Position numbers and translations under genes: made by a program. A stretch of DNA of 64,000 nt, from NCBI RefSeq assembly GCF_008704395.1, contig NZ_CP023695.1, positions 1,860,001-1,924,000 on the forward strand, read 5' to 3'. The notes beneath the pieces were generated by a model that was given only the letters and a program-made list of their open reading frames with translations, had not been told where the DNA came from and ran no database searches. Positions 19,112 through 41,780 of this stretch are shown piece after piece. The DNA is from Streptomyces alboniger. GTDB lineage: Bacteria; Actinomycetota; Actinomycetes; Streptomycetales; Streptomycetaceae. Position 1 is the stretch's first letter. Every line of letters begins with the position of its first letter.

Positions 19112-19134
19112 AGCCTACTGGCGTGCGCTGACAG
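19112..19134 (-). promoter_or_regulatory. PafBC/RecA-NDp-type promoter of uvrC
   Basis: On the - strand CTGTCAGCG, then 8 bases, then TAGGCT. The TGTCAG core and spacing match the actinobacterial damage-promoter consensus TTGTCRGTG-N8-TAnnnT, with two flanking mismatches. The -10 ends 7 nt before the uvrC ATG. Confidence 0.7.
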
Positions 19135-19196
19135 TCCGGGTCGGCGCAGGGGACGGCCGCCGTACCCCGCGGGGAACAGCGGCCGCACCCCCGGTA

Positions 19197-19230
19197 GGGG
19201 ACGGCGGTCGGCGTCCCGGCCGCCGTCCCC
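19197..19230 (-). terminator. Terminator after the C-anchored secreted protein gene
   Basis: An 11-bp perfect stem (GGGGACGGCGG and its complement) that can extend inward by three more pairs. It starts 8 nt beyond the stop of the gene at 19238. Confidence 0.75.
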
Positions 19231-19237
19231 GGCTCGC

Positions 19238-20068
19238 TCAGCCCTGCTGCCGCGCCTTGCGGCGCCGCACGAGCGCCGTCCCGGAGAGGCCGAGGGCGAC
19301 CAGGGCGCTCGCGCCGGCCAGTGAGGAGGCGACCGTCACGGGGCCTTCGGCCGTGCTCTCGGCCGGGCCCGCGACGGAGGCCTGCTCGGCCTTCGCGTCG
19401 TCGTATCCGCCCGCCTTGCCCGACTTCTCGTACGCGGAGCCCGGCAGCTTGTCGCCGTACGCTTTCTGGACGCGCTTGCGATAGGCGGCCAGCGAGGTGC
19501 CGTCGGCGCCCACGGCTCGCACCGCGTCCTTGTCGAGGGGCAGCACGCGCGCGTGGCCCTGCACGTACCAGGCGTTGATCTGCGGCTCGTGGAAGACGGT
19601 GCCTCCGGGGAGCTTCTTCGCGCCCGCGCGCGCGTAGCGGGTCTCGTCGTCCCCTGTGGCGATGTTCACGACCTGCCACGACCCGCCTCGCTCGACCGTC
19701 CACAGGGAGGCCTCCTGGCCGTCCGAGGAGACGGCCTTGCTGGCGAGGAACTCCAGGCGGGTGACCGGTGCGCCCTTCTTGCCCGCGACGAACTCCGGGG
19801 AGAGGTAGTACACGGGTACGGCCTTGCCCTCGACCCGCGGGTCGGCCGCGGCCCTGGCGACCGCTCCCTCCCGGGAGAAGAAGCGGGAGAGCGTCTCCAG
19901 GGTCTTCGGCGCCTGCGCCGCCTTGTGCGCGGCGTCACGCGAGGCCGCGGAGGGGGCGGGGGGTCCGGAGTCGGCGGTGGCGGCCGGGGTGACGAGGCCC
20001 ACGAGCAGGGTGGCGGCCGACGTGGCGAGCGCGGCCCTGGCCAGGTGGCGGGGAAGGTGACGGGTCAT
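19238..20068 (-). CDS. Secreted, C-terminally membrane-anchored protein of unknown function
   Basis: A 276-aa protein with an N-terminal signal sequence (HLARAALATSAATLLVGLVT, cleavage near ATA-DS), an extracellular domain of about 200 residues, and a C-terminal helix (SLAGASALVALGLSGTALV) followed by the positive stop RRRKARQQG. There is no sortase LPxTG-type motif before the helix, so it is more likely a plain transmembrane anchor. I do not recognise the extracellular domain. It starts 5 nt after the cysteine peptidase stop; an overlapping GTG three codons earlier is an alternative start. The tight spacing suggests the two proteins work together at the cell surface. Confidence 0.75.
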   Translation of the reverse strand: MTRHLPRHLARAALATSAATLLVGLVTPAATADSGPPAPSAASRDAAHKAAQAPKTLETLSRFFSREGAVARAAADPRVEGKAVPVYYLSPEFVAGKKGAPVTRLEFLASKAVSSDGQEASLWTVERGGSWQVVNIATGDDETRYARAGAKKLPGGTVFHEPQINAWYVQGHARVLPLDKDAVRAVGADGTSLAAYRKRVQKAYGDKLPGSAYEKSGKAGGYDDAKAEQASVAGPAESTAEGPVTVASSLAGASALVALGLSGTALVRRRKARQQG

Positions 20069-20073
20069 CGCTC

Positions 20074-20754
20074 TCACGCCCCTATCCGGTAGAGCGAGTG
20101 GGTCCAGGAGAAGGTGTTGTTGTCGACGTACCAGGCGTGCGAGGCCCAGTTGTAGCGGTCGCTGGAGGGCCAGGGGTCGCCCCAGTAGACCCAGCTGTTG
20201 GCGTCGTCGTAGCCGTAGAGGACGTGCATGTGACCGCCGCCGTTGGACCACTGGATGCGGGTCTCGACCGGGCGTCCCGCGTCGACCTCGGTCTTGACCG
20301 TGGAGTAGCGCAGCCACCCGGTGACGTACGAGCCGGGGTTGATGCCCGCCCAGCGCAGGCCGTTCTGCACATTGCCGAGCGTGGCCTGGTTGTTGGGGCA
20401 CTCGGTGTTCTGGCTGCGCCCGAAGGCGGCGTTGCAGAACTGGTTCTGGCTGTAGTTGCGGCCCATGAAGGCCGCGATGGTGTTGCCGCCCGCGGCCCAG
20501 CACCAGTTGGTCTTCTGCTGCGCCTGCATGGTGATGTTCAGGCGCTTCGCGGCGAGGACGGAGGCGTCGGCTGCGGCCGTGCCGCTCGCCTCGGAGGCGG
20601 CGGGCGCGGCGGACGTGACGGGGGCGGCGGAGGTGGTGGGGGCGGGGGCCGCCGTGGCCGTGGGGGCGGTCAGGAGCGCGGCGGCGACGACGGCGAGCGC
20701 GCAGAGATGTCTGCGTCTGCCTGTGCTGCTGGTCCTGCTGATCGGTGGGCGCAT
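20074..20754 (-). CDS. Secreted papain-like cysteine peptidase
   Basis: A 226-aa exported protein. A signal peptide (LCALAVVAAALLTAPTATA) is followed by a 25-residue Ala/Ser/Thr-Pro linker and a papain-like domain. The catalytic cysteine is in QQKTNWCWAAGGN, the histidine in NGGGHMHVLYGYDD, and the aspartate in VYWGDPW. The layout fits the C39/C70 (AvrRpt2-like) peptidase group. The start is the ATG with GGGAGG 6 nt upstream. The substrate is unknown; the next gene, separated by 5 nt, encodes a membrane-anchored surface protein that may be its partner or target. Confidence 0.82.
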   Translation of the reverse strand: MRPPISRTSSTGRRRHLCALAVVAAALLTAPTATAAPAPTTSAAPVTSAAPAASEASGTAAADASVLAAKRLNITMQAQQKTNWCWAAGGNTIAAFMGRNYSQNQFCNAAFGRSQNTECPNNQATLGNVQNGLRWAGINPGSYVTGWLRYSTVKTEVDAGRPVETRIQWSNGGGHMHVLYGYDDANSWVYWGDPWPSSDRYNWASHAWYVDNNTFSWTHSLYRIGA

Positions 20755-20954
20755 CGCGTTCCTCCCGAGCGGGATGTGGGGTGTGGAGGAGCGCGTCCGG
20801 ACGCTGCGATTGAGCATCGAGTGTTGTCGAGTGCAGGTCAACACGCTTCAATGCGGAATTACTTGGGCCGTGAACGGCGGCGTACGGATGTGAACGGACG
20901 TCGTACGCCGACCTGGCGACCCGCTCCGACCGGCGCGAACGCCGGGCGGCTGGA

Positions 20955-40543: not shown

Positions 40544-40726
40544 GCGCGGTAGCCCTTCCGCCTGTTGTGCCTAAATGCCCCGAAACGTCCTATACACCCC
40601 CTACCGTCGGCCATCTGAAAGGCCGTCGGCTGACGCAGAGAGTAAAGCTCACACCGGGACGTCGACACGATTTTCCGGCAAAGAATCGCGTTACCCGCGC
40701 GCGGGGTCCTCGACTTTGGCGACTCC

Positions 40727-40748
40727 GTTCAACCTGTGGCCATCCTGC
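40727..40748 (+). promoter_or_regulatory. PHO-box-like direct repeats before the GlpQ-type gene
   Basis: GTTCAACCTGT followed directly by GGCCATCCTGC are two 11-nt units resembling the Streptomyces PhoP direct-repeat consensus (GTTCACC...). They lie about 70-90 nt before the start codon of the phosphodiesterase gene. From memory, the S. coelicolor glpQ2 orthologue is phosphate-controlled through PhoP. Confidence 0.55.
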
Positions 40749-40817
40749 ACCTGTTTCCCGTTGGCCGTGGACTGTCACTCTCGACCGGTCCGCGATCTCA
40801 CGACGCGAGGAGTACCC

Positions 40818-41714
40818 GTGTTCGCACGCGCTGCCGCTGCCACCACCGCCGCCCTCTTGGGGGCCGGTGCACTCGTCCTCCCCTCCGCCCCCGCCTCCGC
40901 GCAGGCGCCCGCGGCACCGCACGCCGCCTGGCACGGCCATCCGCTGGTCGTCGCCCACCGCGGCGCCTCCGCCTACGCCCCGGAGAACACGCTGGCTGCC
41001 ATCGACAAGGCACGCGACATGGGGTTCCGCTGGGTCGAGAACGACGTCCAGCGGACCAAGGACGGCGAACTCGTGATCATGCACGACGACAACCTGAAGC
41101 GCACGACGAACGTCGAGGAGGTCTTCCCCGACCGTGCCCCGTGGAAGGTCGCGGACTTCACGGCGGCGGAGATCGCACGCCTCGACGCGGGCAGCTGGTT
41201 CAGCCCGAAGTACGCGGGTGAGCGCGTGCCGACCCTCAGGCAGTACATGCGCCGGGTCTCGCGCAACCACCAGCGGCTCGTCTTCGAGTTCAAGAAGCCC
41301 GAGCTCTACCCGGGCATCGAGCAGCAGGGCCTGCGCGTGCTGCGCGAGACGGGGTGGCTCGACAAGCACCACGTCAGAAGCAGGCTCGTCATCCAGAGCT
41401 TCAGCGCCGAGAGCGTGAAGACCGTGCACGCGCTGCGGCCCGATGTGAAGACGGGCTTCCTCGGCACGCCCGCGGTCGCCGATCTGCCCGCGTACGCGAA
41501 GTTCGCCGACCAGATCAACTCGACGCACACCTCCATCTCGACCCCCTACGTCGCCGCGATCCACGCGTTCAAGGGCCCGCACGGCAAGCCCCTGGAGATC
41601 TTCACGTGGACCGTCAACGACGCCCCGAACGCGGTGCGCGCCGCGAACTTCGGCGTGGACGGGATCATCACCAACACGCCCGACGTCGTACGCAGGGCGC
41701 TGCACGACGCCTGA
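40818..41714 (+). CDS. Secreted glycerophosphodiester phosphodiesterase (GlpQ-like)
   Basis: A 298-aa exported enzyme releasing glycerol-3-P from glycerophosphodiesters or teichoic-acid-like polymers, useful in phosphate or carbon starvation. A signal peptide (RAAAATTAALLGAGALVLPS, cleavage near ASA-QA) precedes the GDPD TIM barrel. Catalytic and metal residues are in VAHRGASAYAPENT near residue 45, WVENDVQRTKDGELVIMHDD near residue 70, and LVFEFKKPE near residue 152. The GTG start has GAGGAG 7 nt upstream. It matches the position of glpQ2 two genes from uvrB in S. coelicolor, as I recall. Confidence 0.92.
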   Translation: MFARAAAATTAALLGAGALVLPSAPASAQAPAAPHAAWHGHPLVVAHRGASAYAPENTLAAIDKARDMGFRWVENDVQRTKDGELVIMHDDNLKRTTNVEEVFPDRAPWKVADFTAAEIARLDAGSWFSPKYAGERVPTLRQYMRRVSRNHQRLVFEFKKPELYPGIEQQGLRVLRETGWLDKHHVRSRLVIQSFSAESVKTVHALRPDVKTGFLGTPAVADLPAYAKFADQINSTHTSISTPYVAAIHAFKGPHGKPLEIFTWTVNDAPNAVRAANFGVDGIITNTPDVVRRALHDA

Positions 41715-41737
41715 GACACCGCTGGTCCGGCGCAGGT

Positions 41738-41771
41738 CCGCCCACTGACGCGTCGCGTTGTCAGTGGGCGG
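41738..41771. terminator. 12-bp inverted repeat: terminator overlapping the ogt promoter
   Basis: A perfect 12-bp inverted repeat (arms CCGCCCACTGAC and complement) with a 10-nt loop, 24 nt after the phosphodiesterase stop. The right arm contains most of the TTGTCAGTG element of the ogt promoter, so one sequence may serve as terminator for one gene and activator site for the next. Confidence 0.7.
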
Positions 41772-41780
41772 CCGTACCGT
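41758..41780 (+). promoter_or_regulatory. PafBC/RecA-NDp-type promoter of ogt
   Basis: TTGTCAGTG, 8 bases (GGCGGCCG), then TACCGT on the + strand: an exact fit to TTGTCRGTG-N8-TAnnnT. The -10 ends 7 nt before the ogt ATG, predicting a leaderless transcript, the same geometry as at uvrB and uvrC. Confidence 0.85.

Follow-up and report, generated by a model that had tools for sequence, protein, structure and literature searches.

The DNA-damage promoter of mycobacteria termed RecA-NDp or P1 has the consensus tTGTCRgtg-8 nt-TannnT (nt, nucleotides), published for Mycobacterium tuberculosis (PMC5656591). PafBC allows the sigma-A holoenzyme to use such promoters, in which a -26 element replaces the usual -35 contact (PMC11804915), and the PafBC regulon of M. 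smegmatis includes UvrABC, RecA, RuvA and RuvC (PMC8223512). RecA-NDp promoters have also been reported in Streptomyces, at recA and the macrodomain gene SCO6735 (PMC5087735), and LexA of S. venezuelae binds the SOS box of uvrA and has recA and ruvC among its targets; a LexA-independent damage response in Streptomyces remains to be shown, according to the same source (PMC9380542). Here we describe a 64-kb stretch of the Streptomyces alboniger chromosome (contig NZ_CP023695.1, positions 1,860,001 to 1,924,000, referred to as the window), in which the repair genes uvrA, uvrB, uvrC and ogt are each preceded by an element of this type. From their sequence and setting, the four sites are probably (about 85%) PafBC-dependent promoters belonging to a damage-induced -26/-10 regulon of the mycobacterial kind.

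The motif TTGTCAGTG-N8-TAnnnT is found without mismatch 5' of three of the genes. The proximal promoter of uvrA is situated at 27723..27745 on the minus strand with TAGTCT as the -10 element, 54 nt 5' of the proposed GTG start at 27668 (coding sequence 24525..27668, minus strand; TIGR00630), and the alignment with 22 relatives begins at the same start. The copies of uvrB (37452..39605, minus strand; TIGR00631) and of ogt, the gene for O6-methylguanine-DNA methyltransferase (41788..42348, plus strand; TIGR00589), lie at 39613..39635 (minus strand) and 41758..41780 (plus strand) with the -10 elements TACGGT and TACCGT, respectively. The site of uvrC (16951..19104, minus strand; NCBIfam NF001824 and TIGR00194) at 19112..19134 on the minus strand reads CTGTCAGCG-N8-TAGGCT; its -26 element is degenerate, and the site departs from the full motif at two positions. 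The 8-nt spacer and the -10 TAnnnT are present at all four sites, and no -35 element is needed. Scans with profile hidden Markov models uphold the identities of UvrC, UvrA, UvrB and Ogt, and UvrB is 91% identical to that of S. tendae. The original prediction, which equated the pattern with the known LexA-independent damage promoter, gave the coordinates and orientation of all four sites correctly, and the pattern agrees with the published RecA-NDp/P1 consensus (PMC5656591). The feature is real, its type was correctly read, and it is a known kind of promoter.

At up to two mismatches the window holds no further promoter copy, as had been claimed, and a further exact copy is found outside, 2.2 kb from the edge (window-equivalent 66232-66254, minus strand; G000:C1:1926232-1926254). 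It precedes a SNF2-type helicase gene of the SCO1167/SCO6262 family, the 3' part of which is inside the window (62970..64000, minus strand). When three mismatches are allowed, the window yields 9 matches against 7.2 expected from shuffled sequence, which is no excess; only matches with zero to two mismatches are thus informative. The description of the four as all the DNA-repair genes of the window was checked in part: among 35 other open reading frames scanned (28 of the 56 picked by codon bias, plus 7 others), one more repair-like annotation was found, the helicase fragment.

The genome-wide scan proposed with the original prediction as a guard against random occurrence gave a result that speaks against chance. 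The 7.96-Mb genome (single contig) contains 29 exact copies and no match to a reversed control pattern; at up to one mismatch the counts are 107 and 8. Exact copies average 0.23 per 64 kb of genome, compared with 3 in the window. All 61 Streptomyces genomes sampled, this one included, carry the exact motif in 11-44 copies each, summing to 1504 against 6 control matches. Recognizable repair, recombination or replication genes follow 16 of the 29 exact copies, among them recA, ruvC, radA, ung, pcrA, recD2, dnaX and rpsF-ssb. In the set with up to one mismatch, 90 of the 107 sites were examined, and the genes behind 61 one-mismatch sites were scanned as a selection only. The four window genes are a small part of this genome-wide set. 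The proposal that excision repair and alkyl-guanine repair form one regulon is supported in part: the motif occurs far above chance and on repair genes, but the proposal was drawn too evenly, because the uvrC site is degenerate, uvrA also carries a LexA-like box and is without the motif in some relatives, and the set is much larger.

The genome also encodes the regulator. The gene pafA is located at 1460202-1461554 on the minus strand, with pafB and pafC two genes farther downstream in the same orientation. The top matches of the two proteins in the PDB are the PafB and PafC chains of M. smegmatis, respectively. In our alignment to M. smegmatis PafB, the recognition-helix pattern F-x-R-x-F-x-R is kept; judged by pattern, it would correspond to the PafB helix of Arthrobacter PafBC, with its two phenylalanines and two arginines at the same spacing (PMC6789036). 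By the same reading, the residues R181, Y196, R204 and R208, named as the single-stranded DNA site of PafB (PMC11804915), are conserved. The system resembles the mycobacterial PafBC regulon in its -26/-10 consensus, its 8-nt spacing, the position of the pafB and pafC genes within the pup-proteasome locus, and a target set with uvrABC, recA, ruvC and other repair genes. One difference concerns the R position, which is A in 27 of the 29 exact sites here and G in 39 of the 45 matches listed for five Mycobacteriaceae-like genomes, some of these matches lying in repeated elements; the family label rests on a uvrB site that equals the Mycolicibacterium one. The same motif is known from recA and SCO6735 in the same genus, and the recA of S. 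alboniger has an exact copy; beyond these two genes (PMC5087735), tens of sites are seen here across the genus, with excision-repair genes and ogt among the targets.

The distance from the -10 element to the ATG is exactly 7 nt in uvrB, uvrC and ogt. Since transcription in S. lividans mostly starts 5-7 nt past the -10 element, with 17% of transcripts leaderless (PMC8079986), the three mRNAs are predicted to be leaderless. This geometry is frequent among the sites at large. An ATG or GTG 6-7 nt past the -10 element is seen in 11 of the 29 exact sites of the genome, where the offsets 11-39 predict 2.0; the corresponding figures are 13 of 29 for exact sites in loci of other genomes (1.6 expected) and 13 of 29 for TAnnnT sites with one mismatch (1.8 expected). 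Predicted gene starts 6-10 nt away are found at 14 of the 29 exact sites, with the in-frame GTG of recA counted, compared with 17-21% genome-wide (P ~1e-4 to 1e-3, a rough figure because the starts are predicted). At recA (locus L028) this GTG lies 7 nt past the -10 element of an exact motif and 12 codons upstream of the ATG at which the family match begins, and the true start of recA may be farther upstream than expected. The S. coelicolor transcription map, in the part available, reports no functional group among leaderless mRNAs (PMC4681348), and the accessible text of PMC3898074 mentions no link in M. tuberculosis between DNA repair and genes with leaderless transcripts.

Conservation was followed gene by gene, mainly in a close set of 28 loci (26 genus stretches, S. 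tendae and Peterkaempfera). The uvrB gene is present in 26 of them, with the same geometry in every case; 20 sites are exact, 4 have one mismatch, 1 has two, and 1 has a 7-nt spacer, so that 25 of 26 retain the site at up to two mismatches. For ogt, which is in reach in 19 of the 28 loci, 10 sites are exact, 8 have one mismatch and 1 locus is without the motif (18 of 19 at zero or one). The uvrA gene is in reach in 22 of the 28, of which 14 have the motif at zero or one mismatch and 8 are without it. All 30 genus loci of uvrC (from 31 genomes) place a -10 element 6-7 nt before the ATG, and 20 hold the full motif at up to two mismatches. The column table of 29 of them (without L321, which is offset by one base) assigns 1.78, 2.0, 2.0 and 2.0 bits to TGTC, with less conserved columns on either side. 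Of 30 genomes drawn across the class, 29 have uvrB; the best match stands at the leaderless distance in 21 and has no more than two mismatches in 15. Two more class loci, of the Mycobacteriaceae-like family, have a one-mismatch site that is leaderless to an upstream in-frame ATG. Across 34 actinobacterial uvrB loci (34 examined of 80 fetched, the rest mostly titled outside the phylum and about nine with actinobacterial titles), 18 have a site at up to two mismatches that is followed after 6-7 nt by a start codon. Outside the genus, one of 16 ogt-like loci examined has a site at up to two mismatches, and that site is 183 nt away, at identities of 54% or less, where orthologues and paralogues are indistinguishable (19 of 30 ogt-like class loci were used). 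The firmness of the four sites is thus unequal: those of uvrB and ogt are conserved, that of uvrC is conserved mainly in its TGTC core and poorly beyond the genus, and uvrA shares its upstream region with a LexA-like box.

That box, TCGAATGTGCGTGCTA, is located at 27822..27837 on the minus strand and departs from the palindrome at 3 of 12 defined positions. It is weak alone, since equal or better matches occur at 52 plus-strand positions of the window, and is supported by conservation: the best-match listing shows it in this genome and in 20 of the 22 other relatives, and the printed sequence of 1 more contains it, mostly as TCGAAT-N4-GTGCTA. With a LexA-like box next to an exact motif, uvrA resembles mycobacterial recA, which has both LexA-type and P1-type promoters (PMC5656591). 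A classical SOS arrangement, in which LexA represses all of these genes and the motif is a mere core promoter, would draw on this box, found in 21 of 22 relatives, on the LexA binding at uvrA in S. venezuelae with recA and ruvC as further LexA targets (PMC9380542), and on the statement that mycobacterial recA, uvrA and uvrC answer to both systems (PMC8223512). The targets recA, ruvC and uvrA are indeed common to the S. venezuelae LexA/RecA SOS regulon and the set described here; the operator is different, and it is lacking at uvrB, uvrC and ogt, where no LexA-like box occurs within 300 nt and the closest candidates deviate at 4-5 of the 12 defined positions. The main text of PMC9380542, by word search, does not name uvrB or uvrC, and "uvrABD" occurs in its introduction. 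Moreover, the -26 element is itself conserved, yet it has no part in LexA control. LexA as the only regulator is rejected for uvrB, uvrC and ogt for want of a box and is retained as a partner at uvrA; as an account of all four sites it is unlikely.

Ordinary housekeeping promoters, with TTGTCA as the -35 hexamer, are a very unlikely explanation. The similarity of TTGTCA to TTGACA and the commonness of leaderless transcripts in Streptomyces (17% in S. lividans) would suit them, whereas the gap between TTGTCA and TAnnnT is only 11 nt, compared with a mean -35/-10 spacing of 16.5-17.4 nt in S. lividans (PMC8079986), and the -35 reading of TTGTCA is rejected on this spacing. The conserved block at uvrC, TGTC at a fixed distance with weaker columns on both flanks, also argues against it. 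A different reader of the motif, ClgR, was reported in M. smegmatis to recognize the same P1 motif, as cited in PMC5656591; later work names PafBC as the activator of P1, and PafB sits on the -26 element in the structure (PMC8223512, PMC11804915), which makes ClgR a highly improbable candidate.

Several observations weigh against PafBC-dependent promoters. Behind 13 of the 29 exact copies there is directly no recognized repair gene. The uvrC site departs from the consensus, with 3-4 mismatches in 10 of the 30 genus loci, and class-wide only 7 of 28 uvrC loci have a site at up to two mismatches at that place and 21 do not, although TAnnnT is kept before the start in most loci (28 of 30 loci were used, as two start inside the gene). 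Likewise, 16 of the 34 actinobacterial uvrB loci are without the site, e.g., those of Bifidobacterium, Mobiluncus, Corynebacterium and three Acidimicrobiales-type metagenome-assembled genomes. The membership of ogt is not transferable from M. tuberculosis, because alkA-ogt of that species was still induced under PafBC knockdown, an induction linked to an SOS box that is annotated or putative (PMC8151990); the ogt gene here, in contrast, has the motif and is without a LexA-like box. Two members of the class, G191 and G250, encode a PafB-like protein and hold no exact copy, and the 179 genomes outside the class, where PafB-like proteins are common, total 40 exact copies against 18 control matches. 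A PafB-like protein alone is no predictor of the motif. Finally, a 2022 paper took from an initial search that S. venezuelae does not seem to conserve the PafBC motif of M. smegmatis (PMC9380542).

In the phylum as a whole, PafB-like proteins (E <= 1e-10, possibly including other WYL proteins) are found in 126 of 197 genomes and the exact motif in 52 of 197. The motif is present in 16 of 18 genomes of the class and in 36 of 179 outside it, with no more than 3 copies in each of the latter, and its enrichment is confined to the class. Co-occurrence of PafB and the motif across the phylum was dropped as a proof of the regulator, since the correlation is not clean; in the deep lineages, either the -26/-10 element has diverged or the PafB-like proteins have another role. 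For the genus, the survey argues against non-conservation of the motif. The absence of the motif from S. venezuelae is unlikely on the basis of the 61-genome draw, and it is possible that the R position, A here and G in Mycobacteriaceae-like genomes, lies behind the failed search.

If the four sites are PafBC-dependent, PafB would read the -26 element TGTCRGTG, and the housekeeping sigma factor would recognize the -10 TAnnnT that follows after 8 nt; a -35 element would have no part in this. Accumulating single-stranded DNA would be bound by PafBC through its WYL domains, and RNA polymerase would then start at these promoters. The uvrB, uvrC and ogt mRNAs would begin at their start codons, 7 nt past the -10 element, and that of uvrA would have a leader of ~50 nt, the LexA-type element farther upstream being a second one at this gene. 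The four would belong to a regulon estimated at roughly 30 to 100 sites that covers much of the repair machinery of the genome.

A second class of sites, TTGTCAGTG-N8-CAnnnT, is found in 23 copies in this genome and in 60 of 61 genus genomes, with 2 control matches overall. An ATG or GTG 6-7 nt past the -10 element is present in 12 of 23 CAnnnT sites against 1.2 expected, in a set that overlaps with, but differs from, the 23 copies just mentioned. A separate regulator for the CAnnnT sites is possible but not needed, as only 63.8% of the leaderless promoters of S. lividans begin their -10 element with T (PMC8079986). At 4772335-4772429 (L023), a divergent pair of sites 72 nt apart places TAnnnT before a SWIM-domain gene and CAnnnT before a MoxR-like AAA gene. 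Opposed pairs of sites 60-83 nt apart also occur in the genus genomes G013, G032, G036, G039 and G056.

One further exact copy stands 35 nt upstream of a gene with a match to MzaC, from the MZA anti-phage system (L019; below the family cut-off on the piece scanned), and another precedes a sigma factor gene of the TIGR02960 family (L024). SigG is named as a member of the mycobacterial PafBC regulon (PMC8223512). In the window, uvrC overlaps rapZ (16019-16954), and whiA, the gene of a sporulation regulator, follows farther downstream on the same strand (14020-15009). Read-through from the uvrC promoter could extend to whiA, provided that this promoter is induced by damage.

New here are the count across the genus, the list of targets, the unequal firmness of the individual genes and the geometry of the leaderless starts. 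The literature searched, which covers few subscription papers, yielded no description of a Streptomyces PafBC regulon. A wider picture is tentative, and we regard it as possible rather than probable: a Streptomyces PafBC damage regulon of ~30-100 promoters might have its use coupled to leaderless translation, one -26 element serving both TAnnnT and CAnnnT -10 classes, with repair proteins made under damage without a Shine-Dalgarno leader and uvrB and others keeping the arrangement across much of the class. The promoters predict two arms of the damage response, in which uvrB and ogt would respond to PafBC alone and uvrA to both PafBC and LexA; going by the findings in S. venezuelae, the genes recA and ruvC would also respond to both. 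The presence of the motif in all 61 sampled genus genomes bears on the question of a LexA-independent response in Streptomyces left by PMC9380542.

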